IMG/VR virus record: IMGVR_UViG_3300018080_000174 | Coordinates: 1-64,000 of that record | DNA from: a virus | Direction: 5' to 3' (one strand) | DNA length: 64,000 nucleotides | Part shown: piece by piece, positions 9,202 through 58,081 of the stretch | Layout: every line of letters begins with the position of its first letter | Position numbering within the stretch: the stretch's first letter is position 1 | Program-made: the position numbers and the translations under genes | The notes under the pieces: generated by a model | What the model was told of the DNA's origin: nothing | What the model saw: only the letters and a program-made list of their open reading frames with translations | Databases searched by the model: none

Positions 9202-9792
9202 CTACTCCTCAAAAGGCCCCGGTAATCTCTCTGATGTCGTGTCACCACCGAAGCGGTCCAACACTTCGTCCATACTGATCGGTCGCCACTCTCCGGTGAG
9301 TCGGTGGATGTAGTCGATGCCTACGTCCATCGCCCGGCGACCGGGGAACATGGCGTTCAACTCATTCTCATACCCGCCGTGCGAGTGACCATACAGATGG
9401 ATACCACCGTGATGCAGGCCATCCCACGACAATAGTGGGTAGTGGCACAGGTGAATCTTCACCCGATGCTCCCGCCCCGCAATACGAAACTTCCGATACA
9501 GCATATCGTTGAATGTCGAGCAAAAGCTGGCAAGGCTGGCTCGGTCGTGGTTGCCGCGCACAATGTGGAGTTGCCGTACATTCAGCCGGGCGCGGTAGTG
9601 ACCGTACTTCGTCGCACGCCAGCCAAAGTCGCCCAGGAAGTAGAGCGTGTCATCCGGCCCGACCACGGCATTGATCCCGTCGATCAGGGCGGTGTCCATC
9701 GCCTCTACGCTGCCGAACGCCTCATCACGCTTCAACTGGTGCGTGAGGATGCCTTCGTGTCCGAAATGCCAATCTGCTGAAAACCAGATCAC
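9202..9792 (-). CDS. Calcineurin-like metallophosphoesterase
   Basis: A 196-residue protein with a full motif set: SADWHFGHEGI (DxH), YFLGDFG, RGNHDR, LCHYPLL and YGHSHG. This is the short cytosolic phosphoesterase class, found in phages and often next to RNA ligase or Pnkp genes. It sits between RlaP and the methyltransferase with a 4-base overlap to RlaP. A 2',3'-cyclic phosphodiesterase or phosphatase role in RNA end repair is plausible but inferred. Confidence 0.88.
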   Translation of the reverse strand: MIWFSADWHFGHEGILTHQLKRDEAFGSVEAMDTALIDGINAVVGPDDTLYFLGDFGWRATKYGHYRARLNVRQLHIVRGNHDRASLASFCSTFNDMLYRKFRIAGREHRVKIHLCHYPLLSWDGLHHGGIHLYGHSHGGYENELNAMFPGRRAMDVGIDYIHRLTGEWRPISMDEVLDRFGGDTTSERLPGPFEE

Positions 9793-15935: not shown

Positions 15936-15957
15936 CGTATTTCTCCTAAAGGGTTAG

Positions 15958-16030
15958 CAGCGCGACGGGGAATTGAACCCCGGTGACGGGCCTGAAAAAC
16001 CCGCGTCCTAGTCCACTAGACGACCGAGCC
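15958..16030 (-). tRNA. tRNA-Glu (anticodon UUC)
   Basis: A 73-base cloverleaf on the minus strand. Acceptor arms are GGCTCGG and TCGCGCT with one U-C mismatch, the D-arm is GTCTAGTGGACTAGGAC, the anticodon stem is CGGGT/GCCCG with loop TTTTCAG (anticodon TTC), and the T-arm is CGGGG-TTCAATT-CCCCG. Discriminator base G suits bacterial tRNA-Glu. CCA is not encoded. The acceptor mismatch could mean partial decay or a phage-specific variant. It sits alone between two small membrane protein genes. Confidence 0.85.
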
Positions 16031-43090: not shown

Positions 43091-44902
43091 TTATTCCGCC
43101 TTCTTAGCACGACCTTCGCCGCGAACCGGCTTCGCTGCCGAATCATTGAGCGTCGTGTCCGTGGCCGCTTTACGTTCTTCACTCCCCTCCCTCGCAGGTT
43201 CGTCCGACAAATCTTCCACACCTCTTGCGGCCGGATTCTCCGCATCAGATACCGATGTCTGTGCTTCAAGAATACGGGTTGCTCGCTCCAAATGATCTTC
43301 ACGGGCCTGTAGATACTCATCCTCATTGAAGCCCAAGGCCATCGAAGCAACTTGCTCGCCGCACAGACCAGCCTCTTGGGATCGGATGATGACATCTGGA
43401 TCACTTGTGGTGTAATCAGCCTCATCAATTTCATCGAAGATCGAGTCAATCTTCTCTGTATTGATTCGTCCCGACAGTAGAGCCGTTACGATGTTCTTGG
43501 CCAATTCCTTTTTCACCGTGTTGCCGGGAACGGTGAACATCATCTCACGCAGTTTCGTCGCCTCATCAATGCGGTCCCTGTCCGTTTTCAAACTGTAGCG
43601 ATCTGGATATTTGATCGTAGCGATCTTACGATGTTCAAGTCGTCGTTCCTCATACGCAGCCCAGTGCTCTGCTACTTTTCGCTCGCTGCTCTCAAGAACC
43701 AGTCCGATATACGACAGACCCGCTTCCAGCCCTTGATCGCTCATTTTCAGAGCTTCGGCGGACGTGGCTCGCTTACCGATCTTGTTTGTCACCGCAAGAT
43801 TAACGAGCTTCCTGATGTCGTCCTCCAGCTTCTCTTGGAGCTTCAATGAGGCTTCCAGCGGCTCAGGGGACGGATGGATAAAGCCCGGTCGTTCCGCTTT
43901 CAGATCATACGTTCGACCGTGGGTAGTACCTGTCAAAATCTCACGCCCAGAGGCTCGCTGACCGCCAGCCATCGCCGTCCCATCGGGATTAGCTGCGTGC
44001 TTCAAATGGTCGCCCACCGCTCGTCGGTCCACCTGCTCAGTGTAGAACGGGAAGTTTGCTTTCAGGGCGTAGGCAACATCGCTGGAAGTCAGGTTCAGCA
44101 AAGCCGCCTGATGATTCGATACGTCTTTCAAGAGACTGTCACCAATGTCCAGCAAGACGAAGGGGATACGAGTCAATGCGAGCACGATGGGCTCACCCAA
44201 CCAGGGATCACCATCTGGCGTGATCGGATTTGAGTCAGCGTCATAAAACTGCACATTCACGAAACCTGTTTCTTTGTCGATCCAAATCAGACGGTAGCGT
44301 TCAAACTCACCGCCCGGCAGCTTCAGATCGTACATGTCGTGTTGCGTGAAGTCAACGCCCTTGTCCCGGAGAAGAACCGCTTGGAACTCACCCGGCTCCT
44401 CTGGCTTCGAGAGCGACCACGCCAAAATGTCTTCAACTTGATACATGTAGAGATACGGGCGGGCCGTCCCAACGTCGGCCAGCGTTGGCCCTTCCAACTC
44501 GGGCATATCTACATAAACTCCTACCTTACCCATGACTAGCAACTCGGTAAGGCAGTCAATACCCAGGAAGCCATTCATGGAACTTCCTCGCAAGTCCACG
44601 CCACCCTTCTCTCCCGCAACTGCCGACATGTAAGCAGTTGAACCATCGCGTCGGGTAATATCTCGCATCCTTTGGAAGATGGAATTTCGCACGTCGTTTA
44701 CAGCAGCCTTGGCATACGTCGGGATCGGCGTAATGGCCTTGCGATCATTAAAGTCCGATGTCGATTCCCGCTCAGTAAATTTTGTCAAATACTGATCGGT
44801 GTAATGCTCCCCGCCGTCGTACACTTCACGCCACTTTGCCCAATAAGGCGTGTCGTGAAAGTATCGCGGATGCCGTGTATCAATTACCGAAAATTTAGCC
44901 AT
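43091..44902 (-). CDS. Portal protein
   Basis: A 603-residue protein next to the terminase gene. It has a helical start (YWAKWREVYDGGEHYTDQYL), a YAKAAVNDVRNSIFQRMRDI segment, VGVYVDMP in the wing, a long stem/crown helix region, and an acidic C-terminal tail. Size, order and the YVDMP-type motif fit phage portals, perhaps the DUF4055 branch. It forms the DNA-entry dodecamer. Confidence 0.82.
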   Translation of the reverse strand: MAKFSVIDTRHPRYFHDTPYWAKWREVYDGGEHYTDQYLTKFTERESTSDFNDRKAITPIPTYAKAAVNDVRNSIFQRMRDITRRDGSTAYMSAVAGEKGGVDLRGSSMNGFLGIDCLTELLVMGKVGVYVDMPELEGPTLADVGTARPYLYMYQVEDILAWSLSKPEEPGEFQAVLLRDKGVDFTQHDMYDLKLPGGEFERYRLIWIDKETGFVNVQFYDADSNPITPDGDPWLGEPIVLALTRIPFVLLDIGDSLLKDVSNHQAALLNLTSSDVAYALKANFPFYTEQVDRRAVGDHLKHAANPDGTAMAGGQRASGREILTGTTHGRTYDLKAERPGFIHPSPEPLEASLKLQEKLEDDIRKLVNLAVTNKIGKRATSAEALKMSDQGLEAGLSYIGLVLESSERKVAEHWAAYEERRLEHRKIATIKYPDRYSLKTDRDRIDEATKLREMMFTVPGNTVKKELAKNIVTALLSGRINTEKIDSIFDEIDEADYTTSDPDVIIRSQEAGLCGEQVASMALGFNEDEYLQAREDHLERATRILEAQTSVSDAENPAARGVEDLSDEPAREGSEERKAATDTTLNDSAAKPVRGEGRAKKAE

Positions 44903-44914
44903 TGCGAATCTCCA

Positions 44915-46582
44915 TCACAAGAAAACTCCGATGTCCTTGTTGGTTACAATCCCGGCTGCAAGTGGTAGACCCATTTCAGCGTAGGTCAAGGCATGTACGA
45001 AGTGGTCAGTGCCAGTGTTTATGTAAACGGCCCTTGGGTTATTCAATTCGTCCTTCTCGAAAGTTCGGACTACGTTTTTCATGTGGTCTTTGAATTCAAA
45101 GCTAGTGTCAGCCGGGATTTGAATTCGTCCGCTATGAAATCGACCTAAGGCAGCATCCATCCAGTTCGTGCGGTCAACGGTGGCAATTGGTGCGCCGCCA
45201 TCTTCTTCGCTAATTTGCATTTCCTTACCCGTGACTCCCCGCCGATAGCGGCAGAGGTAAACGTACCCAGGAAACCGACGTGCGAATCGTCGGGCGTCGT
45301 TGATCTGCGGATCGGCGTCTATGACGCAGGCTAGGACTTGCCACTCTCGCATCAATTTATCAAGATGCTCAAAGTCGTCTCCAGGAACCTTCCCCTCCCA
45401 CAACAGCTTTCCAAAGGCTGCGGCATTCAAGTCGTGGCTATACTGGTCAAAGAAATACTCCATCACGACAATGTTGTTGGCTTTACCTTGGTCAATCCCC
45501 ATGCAAATGCAACGCTCACCGCCAACTTGTGGCCGGGCATCATTTTTTGTGTATCCGGCAACCGCATGTTCGAGTTCCGTGTCTGTTACCAAGCCACCTG
45601 CCGGGATGTAAGGTTGACCTAGTTTGGAGTTGTGGAACTCCACCATCGCCGCTTCGTCACCCAGGCCACGAAAATGCGCCGTGACGATTTCCCCTGGCGA
45701 CACTGTAAAGCTGTACAATTGGTTGATAAGGAAACTGCGAAAATCCTCATCGCACTTTACTGTGGACTCCCAATGACAATTCTCCAGATTCAACCACTCA
45801 GCTTTTGTCGCATGGTCCAACTTGTGCCCACACTCTTTGCATTTCAGGTAGGACTCTTTGCACCTTGGGTCTGCCACGGTTTCCCCGATGATCTCGACGC
45901 AATCCGGCCAAACCAATTCAGTCATACGCCCGCAGTGTGGGCACTTGAATATGTAGTGCTCTTGCGACCCCTGTTCGTACAGTTTATGTACGCCGAATTT
46001 AGGGATTGTCGGGGTCGAAATGGCCCACACGGATTTCTCGATATGACCCGACAACCGTTCGAGAGCGAGCCAGATTTGCTTCTGGTCCATCTCGTTCACT
46101 TCATCAAGGATCAACGTCGAAACTGGGATTGATTTCAGGTTGGCGTCTCCTCGCGATCCTCTGATATAGAGATTAACGCCACCAGCCTGCTTCAACCCAA
46201 CAGTGTTCGTGTCTGTGAAAAGGCTCTCCAAGTAGGGGCTATTCAGTAACGCGGTATTGAACCGAGCCTTTGCGAAGTCGCTGGCATTGTTCAACGTGGG
46301 GAGGACATACAGCACATCCTTTCGCAATACGTCCACAACATAAAATGCTTGGTTGATGGCGACTTCCGTGACGCCCATTTGGGCAGCTTTCATTGCAACA
46401 TTGTAAGCCGCCTGTGAATCTTGGATGTCTTTGCACCACGGGTACATTTTGTATCCATACGGGCCTGCAAATTCCCCGCCCATAATGCGCCGATTCATGG
46501 CCCATCGAGATGCTGAGGTCATTGTTCGGCTTTTCATGCCGCTTGCAAGGGCCTCACAAAATGCGTCCTGCAAAGCACCCAT
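44915..46582 (-). CDS. Terminase large subunit (GpA type)
   Basis: A 555-residue packaging motor. The deviant Walker A KAAQMGVTE (65-73) parallels lambda KSARVGYSK with its lysine at the first position. Walker B is STLILDEVNEMD (Asp160, Glu161). A zinc site CPHCG ... CKECG lies near 217-254, typical of GpA proteins. The nuclease domain carries MGIDQGKANN, VIDADPQ and DHFVHALTY. It translocates and cuts DNA into capsids. The start is weakly supported (GAGTAAG), overlapping no other strong site. Confidence 0.92.
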   Translation of the reverse strand: MGALQDAFCEALASGMKSRTMTSASRWAMNRRIMGGEFAGPYGYKMYPWCKDIQDSQAAYNVAMKAAQMGVTEVAINQAFYVVDVLRKDVLYVLPTLNNASDFAKARFNTALLNSPYLESLFTDTNTVGLKQAGGVNLYIRGSRGDANLKSIPVSTLILDEVNEMDQKQIWLALERLSGHIEKSVWAISTPTIPKFGVHKLYEQGSQEHYIFKCPHCGRMTELVWPDCVEIIGETVADPRCKESYLKCKECGHKLDHATKAEWLNLENCHWESTVKCDEDFRSFLINQLYSFTVSPGEIVTAHFRGLGDEAAMVEFHNSKLGQPYIPAGGLVTDTELEHAVAGYTKNDARPQVGGERCICMGIDQGKANNIVVMEYFFDQYSHDLNAAAFGKLLWEGKVPGDDFEHLDKLMREWQVLACVIDADPQINDARRFARRFPGYVYLCRYRRGVTGKEMQISEEDGGAPIATVDRTNWMDAALGRFHSGRIQIPADTSFEFKDHMKNVVRTFEKDELNNPRAVYINTGTDHFVHALTYAEMGLPLAAGIVTNKDIGVFL

Positions 46583-46586
46583 TTAC

Positions 46587-46997
46587 TTACTCGTCTTTGG
46601 AGTCTTTGTCCACAGCCACTTCCGCCTTCATCTTCAGCTTGCTCCCCGGCTCGGGCTTCGGCTCGGGCTTCGGCTCGGGCTTCGCCTTGGGCTTCGCCTT
46701 GGGCTTCGGCTCGGGCTTCGGCTCGGGCTTCGGCTCGGGCTTCGGCGCGGGCTTCATGGCGGCCTTCAAGGCTTCCTCGCTATACTCCATCCACTCGCCG
46801 TCGATCAGTAGTTGCTTCACCATCACTTCTCGGCTGGCACTGAGAATTTTCACGGTGAGAGCGGCCACATCTTCGTCGGCCATTGGAATTTCAATCTCCG
46901 GAGCCGCAGCACCTCGGACGTTTAGCTGACTTCCGTCCTTCAGATGGACATGAATCAGGTAGCTGGGAAAATGTCGTGCAGGGTTACGAAATTTCAT
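46587..46997 (-). CDS. Protein with Pro-Lys repeat tail
   Basis: A 136-residue protein. The first 80 residues are a small alpha/beta domain; the rest is a run of PKPE/PKAK repeats (about nine four-residue units, DNA period 12 bases at about 46638-46750), then a lysine-rich end. AAGGAG precedes the ATG. The extended charged tail resembles TonB-like or linker segments, but no membrane segment is present. The repeat number probably varies. Confidence 0.7.
   Translation of the reverse strand: MKFRNPARHFPSYLIHVHLKDGSQLNVRGAAAPEIEIPMADEDVAALTVKILSASREVMVKQLLIDGEWMEYSEEALKAAMKPAPKPEPKPEPKPEPKPKAKPKAKPEPKPEPKPEPGSKLKMKAEVAVDKDSKDE
46638..46750. repeat. 12-base tandem repeats (PKPE/PKAK codons)
   Basis: Imperfect units of the GGCTTCGGCTCG type repeat about nine times, interrupted by two GGCTTCGCCTTG units. 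They encode the Pro-Lys tail of the overlapping gene. Confidence 0.85.
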
Positions 46998-46998
46998 C

Positions 46999-47304
46999 TT
47001 ACTCTCCTTCTGGTTTCCGCTCGGACGGGTTAGGCTCCAGGATCAACAACGGGAGCAGTTTCATCAGAATGGCCTGAATTTGCGGCCAGTGCTTTACGAA
47101 CCAGTCCCAAATCGCACTCCAGTCGATCCGGCCGGTCTTAACTTTCCAAGGCGCGCCGAGTTGACGTTCAACTTCAGCTTCCCACTTCGCGACCGTCTCC
47201 GGGTCTTTGCAGGCTTCTTTGACCTTGGTGTACTCTTCTCGGGTGATTAGGCCGCGCCGCTTCTGACGCCGGGCCACTCTCTGTGCTTTTCGTGCGAAGT
47301 TCAT
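46999..47304 (-). CDS. Hypothetical protein with C-terminal hydrophobic segment
   Basis: A 101-residue protein: a basic helical start (MNFARKAQRVARRQKRRGLI), a middle helix, and a hydrophobic stretch (WPQIQAILMKLLPLLIL) near the C-terminus. AGGAGTGAAGA precedes the ATG. It overlaps the DUF1360-like gene by 4 bases. Possibly membrane associated. Confidence 0.6.
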   Translation of the reverse strand: MNFARKAQRVARRQKRRGLITREEYTKVKEACKDPETVAKWEAEVERQLGAPWKVKTGRIDWSAIWDWFVKHWPQIQAILMKLLPLLILEPNPSERKPEGE

Positions 47305-47612
47305 TCTTCACTCCTGTCTAAGGCATCTAGTGCCAAAAAGAAATGTGTTATCCCCAGGGATGCGAGGCTGGCAAGAGTCACCATCGCCAAGCCCGTAATA
47401 ATCATCTCTCCCAGCGTGCCTCTGAACCACGCTATTACGCTGACCGCTGCCAACCAGTGACTCAAACAATAGGGGCAGTGAATCAACTCCTCAAACCATA
47501 CTCCGAGTCTTGTGACCAAGTTCCGCAGCCAATACATCGCGTTCGACTTGGAAATCGTCATGGACGCGGCTGCGACCGCCAAGGATGTCAGAATGATGTT
47601 ATCAAGTGACAT
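47301..47612 (-). CDS. DUF1360-like membrane protein
   Basis: A 103-residue protein with three hydrophobic segments and the family motif IHCPYCLSHWLAA after WLRNLVTRLGVWFEELI. DUF1360 proteins are small bacterial or phage membrane proteins of unknown role. Grouped with the membrane thioredoxin and the Tat protease. Confidence 0.75.
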   Translation of the reverse strand: MSLDNIILTSLAVAAASMTISKSNAMYWLRNLVTRLGVWFEELIHCPYCLSHWLAAVSVIAWFRGTLGEMIITGLAMVTLASLASLGITHFFLALDALDRSEE

Positions 47613-48180
47613 AGCGGCTCTCGGAGGGGTTGGAATTCTTCTTCAAGTCCTTCTTGATCGTCTCGGCGCTGGTCACGCCGACATGTCTCGCTACAACTGC
47701 ACCGTCGCGGAAGATCAAAGTCGTCGGTAATCTATCAATGCCCAACTCCTTTGCAACTTCTCGATTTTCATCGTAGTCCATGATGTAGACGTTGTATCCC
47801 TCAGCTTTGAGCTTCTTTACAATGGGGTACATTTTCTTACAAGCAGGGCACCAATCTGCCGCCCATAGGACTAAGCAGTTGGACTTAGTTATCACCGCTT
47901 CTCCGACCTCCGTCTCCGCAGTCTCGGTATTCGCGTGGGCTTCTCCTGTGGGGAGGTATTCAGGTCGCCAGCCGAACTGTCGTTCAGCTTCGGGTGTCCT
48001 TTGTGGTCCAGGTAGTCGTTGGCTATATCCGTTGCCTCGGTAATTTTCTCGCTCCAAAGAATCTTGGACCCCTTGGATATCGCGAGGCCGGTCGAACGAA
48101 CTAGACGTACTACCCGTCGCCATATAGAGAGCAAAGCAAACATAGCACACTCCCAGGATTTGTAGTAACTGTTGTTTCAT
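47602..48180 (-). CDS. Membrane-anchored thioredoxin-like protein
   Basis: A 192-residue protein. An N-terminal hydrophobic segment (LLQILGVCYVCFALYM) would anchor it, followed by a linker and a thioredoxin fold from residue 92. The active site is ADWCPACKK (Cys111, Cys114), with the cis-proline region DRLPTTLIFRDG. The domain would face the periplasm and reduce or rearrange disulfides. It is four bases downstream of the exported papain-like protease, whose catalytic cysteine it could keep reduced; that pairing is inference. Confidence 0.85.
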   Translation of the reverse strand: MKQQLLQILGVCYVCFALYMATGSTSSSFDRPRDIQGVQDSLERENYRGNGYSQRLPGPQRTPEAERQFGWRPEYLPTGEAHANTETAETEVGEAVITKSNCLVLWAADWCPACKKMYPIVKKLKAEGYNVYIMDYDENREVAKELGIDRLPTTLIFRDGAVVARHVGVTSAETIKKDLKKNSNPSESRYVT

Positions 48181-48184
48181 CGCA

Positions 48185-49216
48185 TCACCAGATAATGTAA
48201 TCGGGGATGTCTACGCGAGGGTATCCAACGTACCCACTGATCGCAAGACTATCTCCCTGTTTCATCGCGGCGTCAATTGTTGCCGCATCACACCAGAAAC
48301 TCCCATCCGGTTGTTCATGCCGCTTTGGCCCGCTGACCCAAACATCGCCGCCCCAACTGTTTTGGACCAATGCCCCTGGCCGTCTGTATTCATCATCAAC
48401 GCCGAGGATTACCATCGCATGGTACCACGGTCGTCGCCCACGTCGCAGGAATCCATCCCGATCTCGCTTGGTATTGAAGCCCACGTTGCTGCACATGATA
48501 ACGGGATAACCGTTAGCCACTGCATCGCGGCACTCTTCCCACGACCGCACGAATGCACAAGTTCGCACCGGATGGAGTCGGCACAGCGGCTCCAACGCAT
48601 CGGGCACACCCATGTTGCCGCGACCGAGTTTCCGAGCCTTCAAACCATCGTAGGTCGTGTAGTCAAACTTACCGTCAAGGTACTTCTGTCGGAGGAGCAC
48701 GCCCCACTTACGGATAAACTCAGCCGCCCAAACACCGAGAGAGCCGTCGCCGCTGACTCGGCCGCCACCGACCTCGACTCGCGAACCGGCGTAGATGATC
48801 TCCGTGGCGGATTTAGTTACCCATCGTTCGGACTTGTTGTGCATCAAGATACGGACGGCGGTAAGGACATCCACCCCCAAACCGTAAGCGTGGCTAACGC
48901 AATCTCCAATGGTCTGGTAATGGGGAACCAGAGGTCGTCCCGTGACTTGCTCAAAGAGCTTGTACAGGAGGACTTTCTTACCTTTGCCCGTACCCTTGAT
49001 CTTCTGTGACTGCTGACTTAGGAAGGGGTAGCGATGCGCCTTGACAAATTGCCGCCGGGCTTCCGTATCGTTGACCCAGCCTGCGTAAAGCGGATTCTCA
49101 GTATCCGCATGAAGGTCCAGAGGTGCTCCCGCCGCATAGGCCAGTTCTGGGAATCCGCCTGCCATCAGGCCACCAGCCGTGCCTGCCAATAGCTTCAAAG
49201 CGTCACGTCGATTCAT
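48185..49216 (-). CDS. Tat-exported papain-like cysteine peptidase
   Basis: A 343-residue protein with a twin-arginine signal MNRRDALKLLAGTAGGLMAG and a likely cleavage after AYA. The mature part has a papain C1-type order of catalytic residues: Gln101 and Cys106 in YQTIGDCVSHAYG, His266 in WYHAMVILGV, Asn286 in ALVQNSWGGD (NSWG is a family hallmark). AGGAGG precedes the ATG. Papain-like proteases are very rare in phages. It may cut host envelope proteins, perhaps for release; no endolysin is visible in the window. It could also mature a virion protein. Confidence 0.82.
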   Translation of the reverse strand: MNRRDALKLLAGTAGGLMAGGFPELAYAAGAPLDLHADTENPLYAGWVNDTEARRQFVKAHRYPFLSQQSQKIKGTGKGKKVLLYKLFEQVTGRPLVPHYQTIGDCVSHAYGLGVDVLTAVRILMHNKSERWVTKSATEIIYAGSRVEVGGGRVSGDGSLGVWAAEFIRKWGVLLRQKYLDGKFDYTTYDGLKARKLGRGNMGVPDALEPLCRLHPVRTCAFVRSWEECRDAVANGYPVIMCSNVGFNTKRDRDGFLRRGRRPWYHAMVILGVDDEYRRPGALVQNSWGGDVWVSGPKRHEQPDGSFWCDAATIDAAMKQGDSLAISGYVGYPRVDIPDYIIW

Positions 49217-49232
49217 CGCCGCCTCCTGCTTG

Positions 49233-50066
49233 TTAGTTATTGATGCTCAGTGTTTCAAAAAGATCAGCATAGGCCCTCAACCCCGCCGCCACCTCACGCC
49301 ACATTTCCGCGTGCTGTTCTGGCGAGACCAGCGTACCCGCATTGGCCTGTTTCTTGAATTCATTTTGGAGGCTGAGCAGAAAGGGTTTCCACTCCTCCAC
49401 CGAATCTTCAAGAGCCTGACGATTGGCTTCGCCCGTGGCTTTGATAATCTCATCGGGAGTTGTGTGAACACCGGCAGCAATCGTGGCAGCCACGCCTTCA
49501 AAGCTCTCGGCCAACCGCACAACCTCATCTCTCGGCCGCAGCGTCAAAGAGCACCAATACGGAATCCACTCCACCACGCCCGCTTCCGAATCGGGGCGGG
49601 GTACCTTGGGATAATCACTGGGATCGGGGCCGGGCTTACCGACAATCACGGTATGCGTCTTTACATCGACCGTTCCTTCGTAAGCACAGGCAACGATGAA
49701 CATATATTCGCCTTCCTCACGAGCACTGAACACGGCCCGCCGACCCTCGCTGTAAACCTCGAAGTCCACCGACTCGGGCACGAGAATCCATTTGAACGAA
49801 TTTGCCTTACTGGCCGACACGTCAAACCGTACCAACTCCCCAACTTTAGCCGTCTCCGGTGCGTGGATGACAATCTTGGCCCCGTCTACCTGCGGGTCAC
49901 AGCCGTCATCGTCGGTGTACACCACTTCCTGAGCAACGGTCGTCTGATTGGACATAATCCTCACCGCATCAGGCGTCACCTTGAATGATACGGCTGCGAT
50001 AACGCCCGTCGCTGCCAGCACCGCAGTAATCAGCATCGCATTGATAAACGTTCTGAACCTAGCCAT
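49233..50066 (-). CDS. Membrane-anchored PKD-like domain protein
   Basis: A 277-residue protein with one N-terminal membrane segment (FINAMLITAVLAATGVIAAV), a PKD/Ig-like beta domain (VIHAPETAKVGELVRFDVSA, VFSAREEGEYMFIVAC), and a helical C-terminal domain. This domain style is common in Planctomycetota proteins. It directly precedes the Tat protease gene; both would act outside the cytoplasm. Confidence 0.72.
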   Translation of the reverse strand: MARFRTFINAMLITAVLAATGVIAAVSFKVTPDAVRIMSNQTTVAQEVVYTDDDGCDPQVDGAKIVIHAPETAKVGELVRFDVSASKANSFKWILVPESVDFEVYSEGRRAVFSAREEGEYMFIVACAYEGTVDVKTHTVIVGKPGPDPSDYPKVPRPDSEAGVVEWIPYWCSLTLRPRDEVVRLAESFEGVAATIAAGVHTTPDEIIKATGEANRQALEDSVEEWKPFLLSLQNEFKKQANAGTLVSPEQHAEMWREVAAGLRAYADLFETLSINN

Positions 50067-50078
50067 GTTTCTCCCTCA

Positions 50079-50285
50079 TCAGTTGATTTTTGCCGATTGA
50101 TCGTTTCCGTGCCATCTCAGTTGGTAGTCCACCCAACAATCCTCGCACAAGTCAGTATTAGCGAAGAAGATGGTCTTTCCGCAATAGCAGAGATGTGTGG
50201 ACCCGTCTGCTACCGGTTGGCCTCTCCTAACTTTCTCGGCCCGTCTCTGTTCACGTCTGCGCTTTTGCCGCAAATGTCGCCGCAT
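50079..50285 (-). CDS. Small zinc-binding basic protein
   Basis: A 68-residue protein with a very basic start (MRRHLRQKRRREQRRAEKVR) and a CYCGK ... LCEDCW pair pattern, a probable zinc knuckle. GAGGCGAAAC precedes the ATG. Function unknown; such proteins often bind nucleic acid. Confidence 0.62.
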   Translation of the reverse strand: MRRHLRQKRRREQRRAEKVRRGQPVADGSTHLCYCGKTIFFANTDLCEDCWVDYQLRWHGNDQSAKIN

Positions 50286-50297
50286 ATAGTTTCGCCT

Positions 50298-51443
50298 CTA
50301 AGTTCCATTGAAGTGTCGTGATAGGCATCTGTCTTCAGGGATGTCATCAACGCCCATTCCAATTTTCAAGATGTAGTCGGCATCGTGTGGCACGCAGTAA
50401 ATTGCTCCATTCGGGGCCAACACACCTCCCCACCATTTGTTTCCGCCTGATCCCAAGCCTGCGCCGAAACGAATGGCGGTGTCGTTACTGGGGTCAATCC
50501 TCAAAATGTCGTCGCTATCGTAGGGTATGCCGTAGATGCACCCATCGGCCCCGAGTACGCCACCATGCCATTTACCCGTTCCTGAAAGACTTCCAAAGGT
50601 AGTAATGGTGTCATCGCGTGGATCAATCTTCAGCACTGACGTAGCGGAGTTGGGGATGGCGTAGATGCAACCGTTTCCAGCCATAACGGCTCCGTGGTAT
50701 TTTGAACCGCCACTTATGTTTCCAAATGTCGATGTGGAGTCATCACTTGGGTCAATCTTCAAAACGGTAAGATCATTGAAGGGAATTCCGTAAATATATC
50801 CGTTTGACGCACAGACGGCTGAAAACCATTTATCGCCGTCTGATGCGTAGGTTGAACCAACCTTCCCGTGGCTGTCATCACTTGGGTCGATTTTAAGAAC
50901 CTGCGTCTCTCGGAAAGGTACTGCATACACTTTTCCGTTACAACCCAAAACTGATGGACCCCACTTGTATCTACCGGCGTAGGTTCCAAAAGTGTTCTCG
51001 GTATCCGTGTCTGTGTCGAACTTCCAGATGGCCGTCGCCCCATTATACGGTGCGGCATAAATACAGTTGTTAGTGGCAAGAGCACCTCCAACCCATTTAG
51101 CCTCGGCCGAATACGTCGTATTAACGCTGCTGGAGGAATCATTGCTGGGGTCAACTTTAGTGAGCCATTCCGGATCAAACGGAGTGCCGTAAATCTTCCC
51201 GTTTGGGGCCAAGACACACCCGGCCGACTGGTCATTCGCCGTGTGAGTTCCAAACGTCTTCGACGGCCCGGCCCCCATCTGACCACGCCCGAAACCAGCA
51301 CGGGCTGCGATAGCTCGCCTAATTTGCGTCTCGGCGGCGGCGTTAGTTTCCCACGCCGGGAAATCACCCTTGTATACCAAGTCGTCATCAGCGATAGCTT
51401 CAAGCTCGCCGCTATTGACTGTTAATGGTTTTCTATAGCTCAT
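50298..51443 (-). CDS. Beta-propeller fibre/receptor-binding protein, paralogue 1
   Basis: A 381-residue protein made of about seven repeats of 45-48 residues with the core NGxIYGIPYxxTxVLKIDPSD followed by DSTSTFG. This is a propeller blade pattern (NHL/SMP-30/Virginiamycin B lyase-like). It shares its N-terminal segment (KPLTVNSGELEAIADDDLV) and C-terminal LSRHFN with two tandem paralogues. Likely a tail or capsid surface protein that binds a host molecule. Confidence 0.75.
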   Translation of the reverse strand: MSYRKPLTVNSGELEAIADDDLVYKGDFPAWETNAAAETQIRRAIAARAGFGRGQMGAGPSKTFGTHTANDQSAGCVLAPNGKIYGTPFDPEWLTKVDPSNDSSSSVNTTYSAEAKWVGGALATNNCIYAAPYNGATAIWKFDTDTDTENTFGTYAGRYKWGPSVLGCNGKVYAVPFRETQVLKIDPSDDSHGKVGSTYASDGDKWFSAVCASNGYIYGIPFNDLTVLKIDPSDDSTSTFGNISGGSKYHGAVMAGNGCIYAIPNSATSVLKIDPRDDTITTFGSLSGTGKWHGGVLGADGCIYGIPYDSDDILRIDPSNDTAIRFGAGLGSGGNKWWGGVLAPNGAIYCVPHDADYILKIGMGVDDIPEDRCLSRHFNGT

Positions 51444-51449
51444 GGTGAC

Positions 51450-52580
51450 TCACAGCTTGTTAAAGAAACGTGACAGGCAACTATCAAGTTGCACGTCTTC
51501 GAGGGGTTGTCCGATTTTCAAAAGGTGGTCGCTATCATGTGGGCACCCGTAAATGCAGCCATTAGATGCGGCCGCGCCTCCGATCCATTTGTCCCCGTCC
51601 CCAAAATTTCCAAAGGTGGATATGTCATCTGTCTTCGGGTCAATCACTAGGACGGGAGATGCGTCGAATGGAATACCATAAATGAGCCCATCTGCGCCGA
51701 GAACACCGCCGCACCATTTTTCAGTGAGGCCAATGTTTCCGAGCAACTCGGTGGTATCATCACGGGTGTCAATCTTCAAAACGGCAGTGCTGTTATATGG
51801 CATACAATAAATGCAATCGTTGGGGGCAAGCACGCCGCCCCACCACTTTGCCGTCGAGGTAGTGAGACTGCCGAATGTGGAGGTTGAGTCATCACTGGGA
51901 TCAATTTTCAGGACAGTTTCGCTGGTCCCCGGAACTCCGTAAATGAACCCATTAGGGGCCAGTACGCCACCTTGCCATTTAGCCGTGCCTATAAAATTGC
52001 CGAACGTCGAAGGCGTGTCGGTACTTGTGTCAATTTTCAGGATCGAAGTGCTGGTCCACGGCATTCCGTAGATGTTACCTGTCGCCGCCATGACGCCGCC
52101 GAGCCATTTGGTCGAGCCCGAAAGGCTACCGAACGTGGTCGTGGAATCATCACTGGGGTCCAACCTTAAAATCGTCGTCGAATCCAGAGGGATGCCGTAA
52201 ATGATACCGTTTGACCCGAGGACACCGCCGCTCCACTTAACTGATCCGGCTAATGTGCCAAAGGTCGAAGTAGAATGATCGGAGGGGTCTACCTTTAGGA
52301 TGTTCGTTTCAGTGTGCGGGATTCCGTATAGGTAGCCGTTAGGAGCTACGACGAAACCATTCCACTTATCCGTGTTCGTGGACAGGGTGCCCAGTTCGTC
52401 TGCACGTCGCGTCCATTGAGCACGGCCCGCGTCGGCACGGATGCTATGAGCGTTCCTAGTCTGGGTCCACTGAAGGCTGTTCGTCTCCCATGCGGGAAAA
52501 TCACCCCAATCCACAATGTCTCCACTTTGGAGCATTTGCAAACCGCCATCGGCAATCGTGAGGGGTGTTACAACTGTCAT
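51450..52580 (-). CDS. Beta-propeller fibre/receptor-binding protein, paralogue 2
   Basis: A 376-residue protein with seven clear blades such as GGVLAPNGFIYGVPGTSETV then LKIDPSDDSTSTFGSL. It has the same ends as paralogue 1 (MTVVTPLTIADGGLQMLQSG, CLSRFFN). The start has no strong Shine-Dalgarno motif. Blade sequences differ mostly in the exposed loops, as expected for a diversifying binding protein. Confidence 0.75.
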   Translation of the reverse strand: MTVVTPLTIADGGLQMLQSGDIVDWGDFPAWETNSLQWTQTRNAHSIRADAGRAQWTRRADELGTLSTNTDKWNGFVVAPNGYLYGIPHTETNILKVDPSDHSTSTFGTLAGSVKWSGGVLGSNGIIYGIPLDSTTILRLDPSDDSTTTFGSLSGSTKWLGGVMAATGNIYGMPWTSTSILKIDTSTDTPSTFGNFIGTAKWQGGVLAPNGFIYGVPGTSETVLKIDPSDDSTSTFGSLTTSTAKWWGGVLAPNDCIYCMPYNSTAVLKIDTRDDTTELLGNIGLTEKWCGGVLGADGLIYGIPFDASPVLVIDPKTDDISTFGNFGDGDKWIGGAAASNGCIYGCPHDSDHLLKIGQPLEDVQLDSCLSRFFNKL

Positions 52581-52584
52581 GGTG

Positions 52585-52794
52585 CTACCGGTTCATAAGT
52601 TTGCACGTTTGAGGCCGTAGCTGCACGTCGAATTGATCCCGCCACGGTTTGAAATCCGGTTTATTTAGGTCGTCCAAAACTACACAAGGACCAATCCCCT
52701 CAAGATCACAAATGATGAGGAGAGTGTTGGTCTGCATCTCATTGAATGCCTCAACCATTGCTTGTTCTTCGGCAGTTATCTGATATACCTGCAT
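52585..52794 (-). CDS. Hypothetical protein between propeller paralogues
   Basis: A 69-residue protein (starts MQVYQITAEEQAMVEAFNEM) with a helical start and a beta C-terminal half. GAGGCGGGCC precedes the ATG at 52794. It lies between propeller paralogues 2 and 3, interrupting the tandem set. No family recognised. Confidence 0.6.
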   Translation of the reverse strand: MQVYQITAEEQAMVEAFNEMQTNTLLIICDLEGIGPCVVLDDLNKPDFKPWRDQFDVQLRPQTCKLMNR

Positions 52795-52804
52795 GGCCCG
52801 CCTC

Positions 52805-53938
52805 TTATAGTGATTTGTTGAAATGACGAGATAGCACGTAGTCTTCCTGCACATCGTCAATTGCCTGACCAACCTTCATAAAGGTTGTCACGCCGAGCGG
52901 GATGGCGTACACGCAGCCGTTATGTCCGAGGATGGAGCCCATTGCCTTACCGCCCGTCGTGCCTACGTCGCCAAATTCAGTATACTCGTCCGTCTGAGGG
53001 TTGATCTCCAAGATCGTGTCTTCATTGCGGGGCATACAGTAGATTCGTCCGTTAGGTGCGAGAACGGCTCCGGCGTATTTAGCCGAACCGCTGAAAGTGC
53101 CGAACTCACTTACGGTATCATTCACGGTGTCGATCTTGACAATCGTGGTACCGCCATACGGCGGGGAGTAAATACAACCGTTGGGTGCGAGCACGCCGCC
53201 GACGTGGGTGCCGCCCGTGATGGTACCAAACGTGGAGGTCGAATCGTCACTTGGATCAATCTTGAGGATATTCGTATTGATGTAGGGCACGCAATAAATG
53301 CTGCCATCCACCCCCAGACATGCGCCGCCATACTTACCGCCGCCGCCCGCAATGGTGCCGAATGTGGAGGTTGAGTCATCACTGGGATCGAGCTTGAATA
53401 CGTTGGCCGCGCTATACGGGGTGAAGTAAATGTAGCCATTGTATGCCTGAACACCACCCATGTAAGCATTTGTTCCGCCCGCCGTTCCAAACGTCGAGGC
53501 TGTGTCGGTGCTGGGCACGATCTTCAAAACTGAGGTGCTGTTATGCGGAGCCCCGTAAATGTTTCCGGTATAGGCTAGTACACCGCCAGCCCATTTCCCA
53601 GCCGTTGCTCCCAAACTTCCAAATGTGCTCGTTGTGTCGTCACTGGGGTCAAGTTTCAGGACGGTTGCACTTGTGTATGGAATGCCGTAGACATATCCGT
53701 TCGAGGCCGCAACCGCACCATACCATTTCGCGTCCCCAACTAAGTTGCCAAGTTGCTGAACTCGCCGGGTCCATTGAGTTCGGTGGTGGGAAGCCCACCC
53801 TGCGAACGCTTCCCGAACCTGCGTCCACGCCTCAGTATTCGTCTCCCAATCAGGGAACACTCCCGGACTGAGAAAGTCACCGGGCGCGAGAGCTTCTCGC
53901 TTACCACTCGCCAATACTAAGGGTTTTCTAAGGCTCAT
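52805..53938 (-). CDS. Beta-propeller fibre/receptor-binding protein, paralogue 3
   Basis: A 377-residue protein with the same blade repeats (GYVYGIPYTSATVLKLDPSD, then DTTSTFGSLG) and ends (MSLRKPLVLASGKREALAPG, LSRHFN). It overlaps the next structural gene upstream by 4 bases, so it is co-translated. Confidence 0.75.
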   Translation of the reverse strand: MSLRKPLVLASGKREALAPGDFLSPGVFPDWETNTEAWTQVREAFAGWASHHRTQWTRRVQQLGNLVGDAKWYGAVAASNGYVYGIPYTSATVLKLDPSDDTTSTFGSLGATAGKWAGGVLAYTGNIYGAPHNSTSVLKIVPSTDTASTFGTAGGTNAYMGGVQAYNGYIYFTPYSAANVFKLDPSDDSTSTFGTIAGGGGKYGGACLGVDGSIYCVPYINTNILKIDPSDDSTSTFGTITGGTHVGGVLAPNGCIYSPPYGGTTIVKIDTVNDTVSEFGTFSGSAKYAGAVLAPNGRIYCMPRNEDTILEINPQTDEYTEFGDVGTTGGKAMGSILGHNGCVYAIPLGVTTFMKVGQAIDDVQEDYVLSRHFNKSL

Positions 53939-54597
53939 AGCAGGATCGGAGCTTCAATTCGGATGTTCATTACCGTGGTACTCATGGCCTGTCCCACACG
54001 CACGACATATTGACCGGCTGTGGAAGGTGCTGTGCTAGTGAACTTACCTGCCGTGCTTGGATCGAGATAGTACATAGCTCCGGCCGTCAGTCCGCCAGTG
54101 CCGCCAGTGACGGCGTCCCATTGTCCAGTTGTGGCTTCGAGGAACCCGTCCGCTTGCACATCACCCGCCGTCGCCGTATTGATAGTCGTATCGGCCACCA
54201 GCCCTAGCAATTCAGTCGTTGCCGCAGCATTCGCTTGGGCCTTGTCCATGTTGCCGTTCGACTTGACATAGACGGCGTTGCCGATTACCAACGAACCGGC
54301 ATTGTCATTCGTTAGTTCAATCACACTGCCGCCACCACCGCCACCGCCAGCCGCCCACTCAAGCCCCGTACCAGCCGCATTGACGGTGAGGACATCAGCA
54401 GGATTCCCATAGGCGTGAATGACCGATAAGTCAGTCACGTAGGGCTGGAGCGTTGCTTCCATGCCGCGAATCTCGGCCCGCATCCGGTTTCCCATCTCGA
54501 TGTCGGGACTCTTCTCAATGCTAGTTTCCTCTGTCGTGGATGTAGTACCATCCCAGATAGAGGTCGGGAATTTAGGATCGGGCGTTGCTTGTGGCAT
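53935..54597 (-). CDS. Structural protein with Gly-rich hinge
   Basis: A 220-residue protein. The N-terminus (PKFPTSIWDGTTSTTEE) resembles the start of the next gene upstream, a helix follows, then seven consecutive Gly residues, then a beta-rich domain (VIGNAVYVKSNGNMDKAQAN, AGAMYYLDPSTAGKFT) common in phage fibre and DUF2190-like proteins. GGGGTGAACG precedes the ATG. Confidence 0.68.
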   Translation of the reverse strand: MPQATPDPKFPTSIWDGTTSTTEETSIEKSPDIEMGNRMRAEIRGMEATLQPYVTDLSVIHAYGNPADVLTVNAAGTGLEWAAGGGGGGGSVIELTNDNAGSLVIGNAVYVKSNGNMDKAQANAAATTELLGLVADTTINTATAGDVQADGFLEATTGQWDAVTGGTGGLTAGAMYYLDPSTAGKFTSTAPSTAGQYVVRVGQAMSTTVMNIRIEAPILL

Positions 54598-54607
54598 CGT
54601 TCACCCC

Positions 54608-55141
54608 TTAAATATCGGTGTCTGTGAGAGCGTCGTGTAGCTCCTCAATTTGCTTTTGAAGTGCTTCGACTCTCGCCTTGGTTTCCTTGGAATGAGATGC
54701 CAACTGGTTTCGCACTTGGTTGCGGATAACCTCAAACTGTTGGGCAACCTCTTCTTCGAGCTTCTTGTACAGGTCTTCCACGGTGCGGGTGCGGAGCAAC
54801 AATCGCTTGACGCCGCGCTTAACCTTGCTGTGGCTTTCCAGTAGTGTGTCCAATCGTTCGCGGATTCCACGAACGGCTCCCTCAAGTTGCCACGGCGGCG
54901 AGACTCGCTCCAGCGTGGCCTGCATCTTCTCAACCTTGGCCGTTGCGTCTTTGATCTCCTCATTGATATTGGGCATTTTATCAATGTTGTCGGCCAGATT
55001 CAAAACGTACCTTTGGATAGCCTCCAGTTCATGGAGCATGAGACGCCAATCATTGTGCGTCGGTGGTTTGACGACGGCAAGGTCGGGGCGAGCATCTGTG
55101 ATGCCGTTCCAAATACCGTTTGGAAATAGTGATGCGCTCAT
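54608..55141 (-). CDS. Coiled-coil structural protein
   Basis: A 177-residue protein. Residues 1-40 (LFPNGIWNGITDARPDLAVV) resemble the neighbouring structural protein's N-terminus; the rest is a long coiled coil (IKDATAKVEKMQATLERVSP to the end). A trimeric fibre shaft or connector is likely. GGGAG precedes the ATG. Confidence 0.68.
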   Translation of the reverse strand: MSASLFPNGIWNGITDARPDLAVVKPPTHNDWRLMLHELEAIQRYVLNLADNIDKMPNINEEIKDATAKVEKMQATLERVSPPWQLEGAVRGIRERLDTLLESHSKVKRGVKRLLLRTRTVEDLYKKLEEEVAQQFEVIRNQVRNQLASHSKETKARVEALQKQIEELHDALTDTDI

Positions 55142-55158
55142 TTGTCTCTCCCAAGATG

Positions 55159-55187
55159 GGGGCGGGGTCGCTTAGCGTCCCCGCCCC
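55159..55187. terminator. GC-rich hairpin, possible terminator
   Basis: GGGGCGGGG and CCCCGCCCC form a perfect 9-bp stem with an 11-base loop in the gap between two genes. No T-run follows, so it may slow transcription rather than end it. Confidence 0.5.
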
Positions 55188-55200
55188 GTGTGCCCACTGC

Positions 55201-55386
55201 TTACTTGATCGGCTTAGTCGTGATAAACCGAAGGATGACGTTTACACCGCCCTGCACGGCGATGAGCAACGCCAGCAAACTCTCATTGTCCTTGATGAGG
55301 TCGTCACCGACCAGATAACCGACAACACCTGCGCACAACGTCAGCAGGTTGACAATCACCGTCTTACTCTGAAACCACTTCTTCAT
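55201..55386 (-). CDS. Putative holin-like membrane protein
   Basis: A 61-residue protein with two hydrophobic segments (TVIVNLLTLCAGVVGYLVG and SLLALLIAVQGGVNVILRF), short basic ends and the family-like end FITTKPI. This pattern occurs in many phage small membrane proteins placed near lysis genes. AGGGAGAAGAACG precedes the ATG. It is the best holin candidate in the window. Confidence 0.6.
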   Translation of the reverse strand: MKKWFQSKTVIVNLLTLCAGVVGYLVGDDLIKDNESLLALLIAVQGGVNVILRFITTKPIK

Positions 55387-55402
55387 CGTTCTTCTCCCTT
55401 TG

Positions 55403-57049
55403 TTAACTCGGTCGAACCGAAAGTGTTAAGTTGGCGATTTCGATGGCCTTATTCGAGGTAGTTGTTACACGCCAAATAAGCCCTTCCGATACGTCGCCCA
55501 AAATCTCCTCACTCAAACCAACTCGCTTCCAGGCAAAGTTTTGTCCTAGAACGAATTGATACTCCGTGTTGTAATCAGTCTGCATGTCTGCCCGTGCCGC
55601 TTGAGGTGTCGGGGGCGCTCCCGAATTAAAGGTCCAACCAACTGTCTGATGTCGGAGCAGTTCAAAATTCGGCGCTGAATCATTTGCACCGGCGGTGCCA
55701 GTTACTTCGAGTCCCGTGAGCCGAAACTTACTATTTTGATTGTCCCAATACTTGCACAGGCCATCGTTGATTTCAACGCCCGTGCCGCTTTGAAGACTGA
55801 TCGTTACCTGTCCGATCCACTTCTTGTCCGTTTCAAAATAGTCATTGAGCACCCCGCCACTGGTATCGAGGTCTTCAAAGTCTAAAGCCGTCCGAACACC
55901 CTCATCCGTCATCGAAGTACCAGATACCCGCACAACCATGTCCGTCGAAGACGCACCGAGCACGATAAAGGCATGAGCACCGTAAGCCGCATTCGCACTT
56001 CCGAGCGTGGTACCGCCTCCCGTTGGTGTGTAACTCGTACCGCCGAAGATGTAGTAACCGCCCACGTAGTACGTTCCTGACGACCCTGCCGGAGACACGA
56101 ATGCCCAACTGGTATCGAAAGATTTGAAGTTGGTCGCCACTTCCTCCCAAACGGAACCGGCGGATTCATACTGCATTATCAGGTGGTCATGCTCCCCGAT
56201 GATTAAAGCACTGCCGGAGTGCAAATGTAGCCCGTCGCCATCATGGAGCGCAACCGTATTCGTGTCACTACTTCCGTGAAGGAACATGAGTTGACCATCG
56301 GTACCGGCCGCGATTTGAGGATTTGCAGTGACAACTACCGGCCCGCCACTACCTTGAATCCGCATCGTGGCGTTAGTTGGCGTGATGCCGCCTACCGCCG
56401 TGATGTTAGTGATCGCAGAGGGGTTGAGCGTGAACTTCTTGTCCACGCGCAAGTCCTCATTGATTTCAAGGTCTTCAATCACCATCGTCTGGGCCACGTC
56501 CGTTGGCCCAATAACGACAAGGATTCGCCCCGTCGTGGCCGATTGCTCGATCACGTTCCCGATCTTGATCGGGAAGCTGGGAGCGGTGGGCACGGTGTCC
56601 GTCCACTCACCCGCAACCAAGTCTGACAGGTAGAGGTCCGTTCCAGGGGAATAGGCACTCGTGTTAAGCCCGCCGACCGATCCAAAGATCGTGACGAATC
56701 CAACCTCATTAACACCGATGTCGTGGGTCGCCATCGCGATGACCGTCGTCGTACTCGGATCGTCCGACTTTGCGAGGTCCAGCGTTGGATACGACCCCGT
56801 ACCTCCAGAGAGATACACCAACGCTCCATTATCAATCTGTGAGGCAGTGTTGTTGCTGGCGCGGATATAAATCTCCTGCCCCAACTGCAACGTTACGTCT
56901 GCCTCATTGTTGTAGACCGCCAATGTCTTGAACGTGTCGTCGTAAAAGATACGACCCTCGTTGTGGGGCGGGTATGGAAGCCCCGGCGTCAAGTCGATAT
57001 ACGACTGCGCTCCCAACCCCTGCGGAGGTATATAGTCAAGACTTTCCAT
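55403..57049 (-). CDS. Tail fibre-like structural protein
   Basis: A 548-residue beta-rich protein. N-terminal PPHNEGRIFYDDTFKTLAVY is typical of phage fibre bases, followed by DUF2190-like segments (ALVYLSGGTGSYPTLDLAKS) and a C-terminal beta sandwich. AAGGGACGATC precedes the ATG. Likely part of the adsorption apparatus. Confidence 0.72.
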   Translation of the reverse strand: MESLDYIPPQGLGAQSYIDLTPGLPYPPHNEGRIFYDDTFKTLAVYNNEADVTLQLGQEIYIRASNNTASQIDNGALVYLSGGTGSYPTLDLAKSDDPSTTTVIAMATHDIGVNEVGFVTIFGSVGGLNTSAYSPGTDLYLSDLVAGEWTDTVPTAPSFPIKIGNVIEQSATTGRILVVIGPTDVAQTMVIEDLEINEDLRVDKKFTLNPSAITNITAVGGITPTNATMRIQGSGGPVVVTANPQIAAGTDGQLMFLHGSSDTNTVALHDGDGLHLHSGSALIIGEHDHLIMQYESAGSVWEEVATNFKSFDTSWAFVSPAGSSGTYYVGGYYIFGGTSYTPTGGGTTLGSANAAYGAHAFIVLGASSTDMVVRVSGTSMTDEGVRTALDFEDLDTSGGVLNDYFETDKKWIGQVTISLQSGTGVEINDGLCKYWDNQNSKFRLTGLEVTGTAGANDSAPNFELLRHQTVGWTFNSGAPPTPQAARADMQTDYNTEYQFVLGQNFAWKRVGLSEEILGDVSEGLIWRVTTTSNKAIEIANLTLSVRPS

Positions 57050-57058
57050 GATCGTCCC

Positions 57059-57784
57059 TTACTCTACGTGGAACAGCGATTCCAACTGAGTACGCAAGGC
57101 TTCGTTGTCATCGTCGATGGCCGCCTGCCACGCGAGAATCTTACGCAAGGAGGCACTGGGCCAGTGCGCTGTGCTCTGCTCGCGATTTGTGGCCAAGGCT
57201 GCGGGTGAAAGCAGTGAACCTTGAGCCGGTGGGGCGGTAATCAGGCCGTGTGCCCACATGACTGCCCAAGCATACCGCTTGGCTTGCCCATGCGTCGTCG
57301 TGCTCGCACCGTTGACCGTGCCACCACCGCTGAGGTCAACATCCGTAACCACCGTCTGACCCATGTTCTTTCCGGCAACCGAGTTGCCATCGAACGTGAG
57401 GGTGGCTGCATTGGCCGTGAGGTCGCCCGTAAGGGCAACAGTGATGTCACCGTTGGTCCAGCCCGCGTAGCCGTCCGCCGTCATCTTCGTGTCGATTGCA
57501 CTTTCAATAGTCGCCTGATTGGCACTGTAAAGAATGTTGGCCGTCGTGTGACTGACGCCAAGCTCATCCACAATCGTAATCGTGAAGTTGCCGCCACTGA
57601 CCGTGGCCACGAACTTGTTGATGACCTGCACTTCGTCCTTCTCGTCAAAAGCGGCGGGCACTGTCTGGTCGAGACGTGCTTCGTGCCTCTTCAATTCGTT
57701 ATACGTCACTCGCTGCGGGCCGTCCTGCGGCTCGGTCTTGTCGATGATAGTCGAGTGAGCGATGAAATCTGCGTAAAGACCCAT
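57059..57784 (-). CDS. Structural protein with beta-domain insert
   Basis: A 241-residue protein. The helical N- and C-terminal parts (YNELKRHEARLDQTVPAAFD; HGLITAPPAQGSLLSPAALA) flank a central beta domain (GNFTITIVDELGVSHTTANI, GDLTANAATLTFDGNSVAG) that looks inserted. AGGAGAAACACAC precedes the ATG. Role within the virion unknown. Confidence 0.65.
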   Translation of the reverse strand: MGLYADFIAHSTIIDKTEPQDGPQRVTYNELKRHEARLDQTVPAAFDEKDEVQVINKFVATVSGGNFTITIVDELGVSHTTANILYSANQATIESAIDTKMTADGYAGWTNGDITVALTGDLTANAATLTFDGNSVAGKNMGQTVVTDVDLSGGGTVNGASTTTHGQAKRYAWAVMWAHGLITAPPAQGSLLSPAALATNREQSTAHWPSASLRKILAWQAAIDDDNEALRTQLESLFHVE

Positions 57785-57847
57785 GTGTGTTTCTCCTGTT
57801 TACTAAGTTGTACCCGTTACAGTTTTCCCCACCCTCGGACACAACAC

Positions 57848-58081
57848 TTATTCGACACTTGTTACGTCAATCTCAGTCAGTGCGGCGTCGGCAAGTCGGT
57901 TCGCTTCAGCCTGCTCCCAACGTCGAACTTGTCTCACGAGCCATTCGCGAATCAGTCGTTTCGCAAACTGCTTACGTGTCTCACCTTCTTCAGCATTGAT
58001 GTCATACTGATGGAGGCCACAAAAGGCGTCAACGAGACGAGTTCCGTGGGAATCTGATAAGTTGTGATTAAGCGTCTGCAT
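57848..58081 (-). CDS. Hypothetical helical protein
   Basis: A 77-residue helical protein (KRLIREWLVRQVRRWEQAEA). AAGGGAGAGATC precedes the ATG. It lies between two structural proteins in the late block. No family recognised. Confidence 0.62.
   Translation of the reverse strand: MQTLNHNLSDSHGTRLVDAFCGLHQYDINAEEGETRKQFAKRLIREWLVRQVRRWEQAEANRLADAALTEIDVTSVE

Follow-up and report, generated by a model that had tools for sequence, protein, structure and literature searches.

We find that a phage late operon in the window (the 64,000-nucleotide stretch of DNA analysed here, part of a 67,411-base virus record in IMG/VR) encodes a predicted papain-like cysteine protease, probably destined for export by the host cell, which belongs to a cassette of conserved order. 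The chances seem to us about even that this cassette is a phage release (lysis) module in which the protease takes the endolysin's place.

A protease gene in a phage late operon

The gene for the protease, P0001, was placed at 48185-49216 by the initial annotation. These coordinates are correct and the gene lies on the minus strand, the plus strand of the interval having internal stops. It is preceded by a ribosome site, AGGAGG, and has a dN/dS of about 0.06, calculated against the two relatives with unsaturated dS only; on this basis the ORF is a genuine gene. It belongs to a packed run of minus-strand late genes (49233-50066, 48185-49216, 47602-48180, 47301-47612, 46999-47304, 46587-46997 and the terminase at 44915-46582) that are 1-17 bases apart or overlap slightly. 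Beyond the terminase lie portal, scaffold, P22-type coat and tape measure genes, as expected of the phage late operon proposed initially. A promoter and terminator scan of 44900-58000 gave fewer sites than shuffled sequence and was uninformative. The features of the protease gene are as follows.

48185-49216, minus strand: papain-like (C1-type) cysteine protease P0001, 343 amino acids (ORF, predicted fold, active-site residues)
49127-49216, minus strand: Tat-type signal peptide, residues 1-30, NRRDALKLLAG plus hydrophobic stretch (consensus, profile scores, relatives)
48899-48916, minus strand: active-site motif QTIGDC, from Gln101 (oxyanion hole) to catalytic Cys106 (alignment)
48419-48421, minus strand: catalytic His266 (alignment)
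48350-48361, minus strand: Asn286-Ser-Trp-Gly, NSWG (alignment)
48188-48205, minus strand: PDYIIW tag at the C-terminus, residues 338-343 (surrounding stretch predicted to be disordered)

Elsewhere, the window carries genes for an RNA ligase (PF09414, 5141-6211) and for RlaP, a member of the RNA-repair polymerase-beta family (PF10127, 9789-10703), with a phosphoesterase-like gene between them (9202-9792), possibly an RNA repair set. A glycosyltransferase family 41-like gene beside a methyltransferase (6208-9199) is also retained by two related contigs out of three. At 50298-53938, DUF6923 repeats occur in three tandem paralogues, each about 377 amino acids long, of which relative G003 has fewer copies. 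The sole tRNA found is a tRNA-Glu (anticodon ttc; 15957-16030, minus strand). Another related phage contig, G005 (the contig of locus L009), encodes a Ro60-like protein with Pfam TROVE and Ro60 vWA domains.

The protease has a predicted papain-like fold and a conserved active site

Gln101, Cys106, His266 and Asn286 (NSWG) occur in the order claimed by the initial annotation. Neither the catalytic Cys nor the catalytic His varies across 78 full-length relatives (78/78 each); Gln101 is kept in 76/78 and Asn286 in 74/78. We built an AF2 model with 16 relatives (pLDDT 74, pTM 0.76) and compared it with known structures. Foldseek returned 196 chains at E <= 0.001, the best being Xylellain (3ois, E 5.2e-9), with which VIA-align gave Z 19.9 over 243 residues. 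A profile of the 16 relatives produced 12 weak matches in the PDB (E 0.07-0.5), all to cathepsin-, papain- or silicatein-type proteins or to Cwp84.

Direct profile and sequence searches returned little. A phmmer search of PDB sequences with P0001 gave chance matches only, PHROGs gave no match to the protease, and in Pfam nothing exceeded the cut-off, the sole peptidase family listed (C39_2) scoring below it. Since the PF00112 profile had no match in the window's own record, we name P0001 C1-type by fold and active site and not as a PF00112 member. By these two features it is a papain-like, C1-type protease of predicted activity.

A Tat-type N-terminus and varied predicted export routes

The N-terminus of the protease (MNRRDALKLLAG...) agrees with the Tat consensus and scores below cut-off with both Pfam TAT_signal (PF10518; 12.2 bits, cut-off 22.7) and TIGR01409 (16.4 bits, cut-off 16.7). 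The RR pair and hydrophobic stretch are kept in 44 full-length members, among them forms closer to the consensus such as MFTRRDFLK and MLSRRELLK. This bears out, as a Tat-type N-terminus, the twin-arginine signal noted at first. On sequence grounds the host cell probably exports the protease, and the earlier idea of an exported papain-like enzyme is supported as predicted export. Full-length relatives form three groups, Tat-type (44), Sec/TM-anchored (about 14) and no signal (about 20), the non-Tat classes being set by a simple hydrophobicity rule that makes individual assignments approximate. By analogy, the spread of export routes among these subfamilies appears to be the same as among endolysins.

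The protease belongs to a conserved cassette

The genes that accompany the protease in the window are listed below.

55201-55386, minus strand: holin-like protein, 61 amino acids (phrog_4712 holin, E 2e-5, 38/50 positions)
50079-50285, minus strand: c20, small Cys-containing basic protein just upstream of the partner
49233-50066, minus strand: anchored partner, 277 amino acids, with N-terminal TM helix, PKD-like domain and C-terminal four-helix bundle
47602-48180, minus strand: thioredoxin (WCPAC) with N-terminal signal/TM helix and linker
47301-47612, minus strand: DUF1360 small membrane protein (25.1 bits, cut-off 21)
46999-47304, minus strand: small protein c8 with C-terminal hydrophobic helix
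44915-46582, minus strand: terminase large subunit (TerL), downstream limit of the conserved block (profile match, neighbourhood models)

Tat-type loci share a fixed order of holin-like gene, partner, protease, thioredoxin, c8 and TerL. Counted with gene-cluster models at Tat-type loci with long enough flank only, the partner adjoins the protease in 43/44 testable loci and a holin-like homologue lies upstream of the partner in 25/31; downstream of the protease are the thioredoxin (47/50), c8 within 3.5 kb (45/47) and TerL within 6.5 kb (37/37). The PKD-like domain of the partner matches PDB 2y72 (E 8.5e-5). Judged by eye, the partner is replaced in chromosomal relatives by a short protein that looks exported or lipoprotein-like, and the Tat, Sec/TM and no-signal subfamilies all keep an exported or lipoprotein-like partner upstream. 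The gene with the PHROG holin match, absent from the initial annotation, would favour a release role. Its homologues match holin families weakly or not at all, and membrane genes beside no-signal proteases gave no holin-family match.

The place of the cassette beside the terminase would also suit a packaging or virion role, which counts against a lysis module. A protease that processes capsid or tail proteins, or that is carried in the particle for entry, could explain both the constant proximity of TerL in Tat-type loci and the existence of a signal-less subfamily. We hold such a function to be improbable: both the Tat signal and the TM anchor of the partner suggest a location outside the cytoplasm, the site of capsid assembly; an exported thioredoxin partner fits poorly; and the coat is P22-like. 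P22-type coat proteins are not known to require a maturation protease.

A C-terminal tag is shared by unrelated cassette proteins

Tat-type proteases and their thioredoxins, which have unrelated folds, end in a common tag, [DN]-Y-x-[IL]-[WFY], that is almost absent from other ORFs. We examined the 480 complete ORFs of the window and of the 21 loci collected first: 32 have the ending [YH]-x-[ILVM]-[WYF], and every one encodes either the protease or the thioredoxin or else a small TM protein lying between the two. A larger set contained 69 tagged ORFs out of 3,406, about two of which fell outside these three families and their neighbours. The tag is found in 40/44 Tat-type proteases and 1/34 others (Fisher p 2e-16, a test that ignores sequence relatedness). 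It also occurs in 31/53 thioredoxins from Tat-type or incomplete-protease loci, others having looser endings such as PDYDL; that of the window's thioredoxin is degenerate (..SRYVT). The TM protein between protease and thioredoxin carries a terminal tag in few loci and an internal P-[DN]-Y-[DN]-[ILV] in others.

Two other explanations of the tag were rejected. In an outer-membrane beta-signal, aromatic and hydrophobic positions alternate; the tag has no such alternation and the tagged proteins are not barrels. Nor is it a fixed C-terminal strand of the protease fold, given that residues 331-343 have pLDDT <50 in the AF2 model and are predicted to be disordered, and that the unrelated thioredoxin is tagged too. 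The simplest reading is that the tag is a candidate docking motif for a common partner, to which its presence on unrelated proteins points. One relative (L019:5135-6067) lacks a Tat signal, has the tag and carries Thr at the catalytic Asn position (CTSWG); it may be altered or inactive.

Inteins interrupt the protease at both catalytic motifs

Eight relative loci encode proteases with inteins.

L014:3051-5219: intein-bearing protease gene, GDC site
L015:8549-10717: intein-bearing protease gene, GDC site
L017:6913-10098: intein-bearing protease gene, GDC and NSWG sites
L018:7286-8785: intein-bearing protease gene, GDC site
L055:8001-10037: intein-bearing protease gene, NSWG site
L080:437-1909: intein-bearing protease gene, GDC site
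L083:6567-9740: intein-bearing protease gene, GDC and NSWG sites
L092:6639-8717: intein-bearing protease gene, GDC site

In seven loci an intein splits the GDC motif after its Asp, so that the first residue past the intein is the catalytic Cys itself; in three it directly follows NSWG. Pfam intein and LAGLIDADG models support inteins in the three loci scanned, and the short inteins of L018 and L080 have no obvious endonuclease part. The apparent long form at L128 proved to be an over-extended start codon and not an intein. Homing elements prefer the most conserved sites, and inteins at the active site are therefore independent evidence that it matters. The protease active site is thus under strong constraint. 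An intein-bearing protease cannot act before splicing and, if Tat exports the protease folded, splicing should precede transport. Inteins directly before the catalytic Cys of an apparently exported protein raise the question of whether splicing must finish before Tat transport.

Homing-endonuclease-like genes (GIY-YIG type by eye) also lie between protease and thioredoxin at L013:4243-4905 and L076:1020-1715, which indicates that the cassette is targeted by homing elements between genes too.

No recognised endolysin in the contigs scanned

The initial annotation had recognised no endolysin, and wider searches agree. Amidase_2, CHAP, SLT, NLPC_P60, Phage_lysozyme, M15_4 and M23 each matched 0/12 family contigs (1.11 Mb) while positive controls matched; these contigs are linear and possibly incomplete, and a novel muralytic family would escape a profile search. 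In two related contigs, with 80 and 83 ORFs, Pfam scans listed 25 of 27 and 25 of 33 families, none of them a peptidoglycan hydrolase, and scans of the window and of one chromosomal prophage showed no peptidoglycan-hydrolase family. Because it has no recognisable peptidoglycan-hydrolase domain, we assign the protease to none of the known endolysin families, although it may function as an endolysin does.

A papain-like endolysin might instead cut the stem or cross-link peptides of peptidoglycan and not proteins. The papain-fold CHAP and NlpC/P60 enzymes do so (PMC10318531), Planctomycetes have peptidoglycan (PMC4432640), and the evidence from the cassette applies to such an enzyme as it does to a lysis module. 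We nevertheless think a murein endopeptidase quite unlikely, as CHAP and NlpC/P60 had no match in family contigs, the Pfam scan recognised no wall-binding domain in P0001, and the closest structural matches are C1 proteases that cut proteins, although a substrate cannot be deduced from the fold.

Relatives in uncultured viruses and Planctomycetota prophages

The initial annotation called an exported cysteine protease very unusual in a phage. This holds for isolates: tblastn of 50,697 phage records gave no match to P0001, nor to three members of other protease branches. It does not hold for uncultured viruses, in which the family has at least 195 encoding loci in IMG/VR (the best 80 were kept for analysis) and where C1 enzymes are annotated in uncultured Caudovirales and giant viruses. 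Distant relatives were found in 11/392 Planctomycetota genomes sampled, several in contigs of 5-8 Mb, and one chromosomal locus is flanked by terminase, portal and tail-tube genes. These relatives appear to be prophages integrated in Planctomycetota chromosomes. In a second phylum 1/390 genomes matched, through one small MAG contig, L020 (10.8 kb), and Anaerolinea was accordingly set aside as a host. No Tat-type members were found in chromosomes, all chromosomal relatives being Sec/TM or no-signal, so the host of the window's Tat-type branch is assigned by family relation only.

A host with little or unusual peptidoglycan had been suggested. The relatives lie in Planctomycetota, but Planctomycetes have a lysozyme-sensitive peptidoglycan wall (PMC4432640), which makes an argument from an unusual wall weak and means that the missing muralytic enzyme needs explaining.

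An exported protease could also act on a living host, trimming receptors or surface proteins in envelope remodelling or superinfection exclusion and not serving as a lysis enzyme. Predicted export, a membrane-anchored partner and retention of the cassette in chromosomal prophages are consistent with this, and thioredoxin and DUF1360 are atypical lysis genes. We regard it as unlikely in view of the holin-like gene within the block, the lack of another candidate endolysin in the contigs scanned, and the no-signal subfamily, which could not get to the surface of a living cell.

A candidate release module

Several observations argue for a release (lysis) module with the protease in the position of the endolysin. 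The cassette has a conserved order and includes the window gene with the PHROG holin match; the Tat, Sec/TM and no-signal subfamilies keep the upstream partner, much as endolysins vary in export route; peptidoglycan hydrolases are absent from the contigs scanned; and the active site is constrained, with inteins at both catalytic motifs. There is also a precedent in PeiW and PeiP of phages psiM100 and psiM1/psiM2, pseudomurein endoisopeptidases that are phage cysteine peptidases lysing the cell wall (PMC4592898). Against this, the putative holin is called from one PHROG match.

In such a module, the protease would fold in the cytoplasm, where an intein, if present, would also splice, and Tat would translocate the enzyme, already folded, over the inner membrane. 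At the envelope, protease and thioredoxin would be held together by the TM-anchored PKD/helical partner and by the C-terminal tag, and the thioredoxin may keep the catalytic Cys reduced or unlock it. Together with the holin-like protein, the protease would then cut either a protein layer of the envelope or the peptide component of the wall, opening the cell. Signal-less relatives would need a membrane hole, like classical endolysins. We advance only tentatively the fuller proposal of a new lysis type in phages related to Planctomycetota prophages, in which a holin-like protein, a Tat-exported protease replacing the peptidoglycan hydrolase, and a thioredoxin are joined at the envelope by tag and PKD anchor. 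If true, it would mean that phages can use an exported protease, and not a muralytic endolysin, to open bacteria, with redox control by a phage thioredoxin. It would also offer a testable handle on phage exit from Planctomycetota, on which the literature searched holds little, and a candidate lytic enzyme for this group.

Comparison with known systems

In the literature searched, we found no description of a Tat-type protease in a holin-like/anchor/thioredoxin cassette with tag and active-site inteins, and nothing direct on how planctomycete phages lyse their hosts or on papain-like phage proteases that contain inteins. Holin/endolysin cassettes resemble the present one in having a holin-like gene, an envelope-directed enzyme, varying export routes and a membrane-anchored partner. 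They differ from it in that here the enzyme is C1-type with a Tat-type signal, a thioredoxin is part of the core and there is no recognisable peptidoglycan hydrolase. Phage P1 Lyz is a signal-bearing endolysin with thiol-controlled activation. PeiW and PeiP, compared with the window protease through the literature only, have a Cys/His/Asp triad and an archaeal pseudomurein substrate.

The bacterial C1 enzymes Xylellain (3ois) and Lpg2622 (6a0n) are like the window protease in its predicted fold over about 240 residues and in Gln/Cys/His/Asn order, with 16-18% identity and with no PF00112 match on the phage side. Unlike this bacterial branch, the window protease is phage-encoded and has a Tat-type signal, a C-terminal tag and fixed partners; compared with papain, the Gln-to-Cys spacing is one shorter in most phage family members. 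Cwp84 (4ci7), a surface-layer cysteine protease, is an exported C1 enzyme acting on a protein layer (fold match Z 15.7), but it is a host protein with other domain make-up and no phage link. In BFVD, Peptidase_C1 proteins from uncultured Caudovirales and from giant viruses fall into the same fold class, at 12-20% identity to the window protease. A papain-like fold in phages is thus already known; what is new is its combination with predicted Tat-type export, the cassette, the tag and the active-site inteins.
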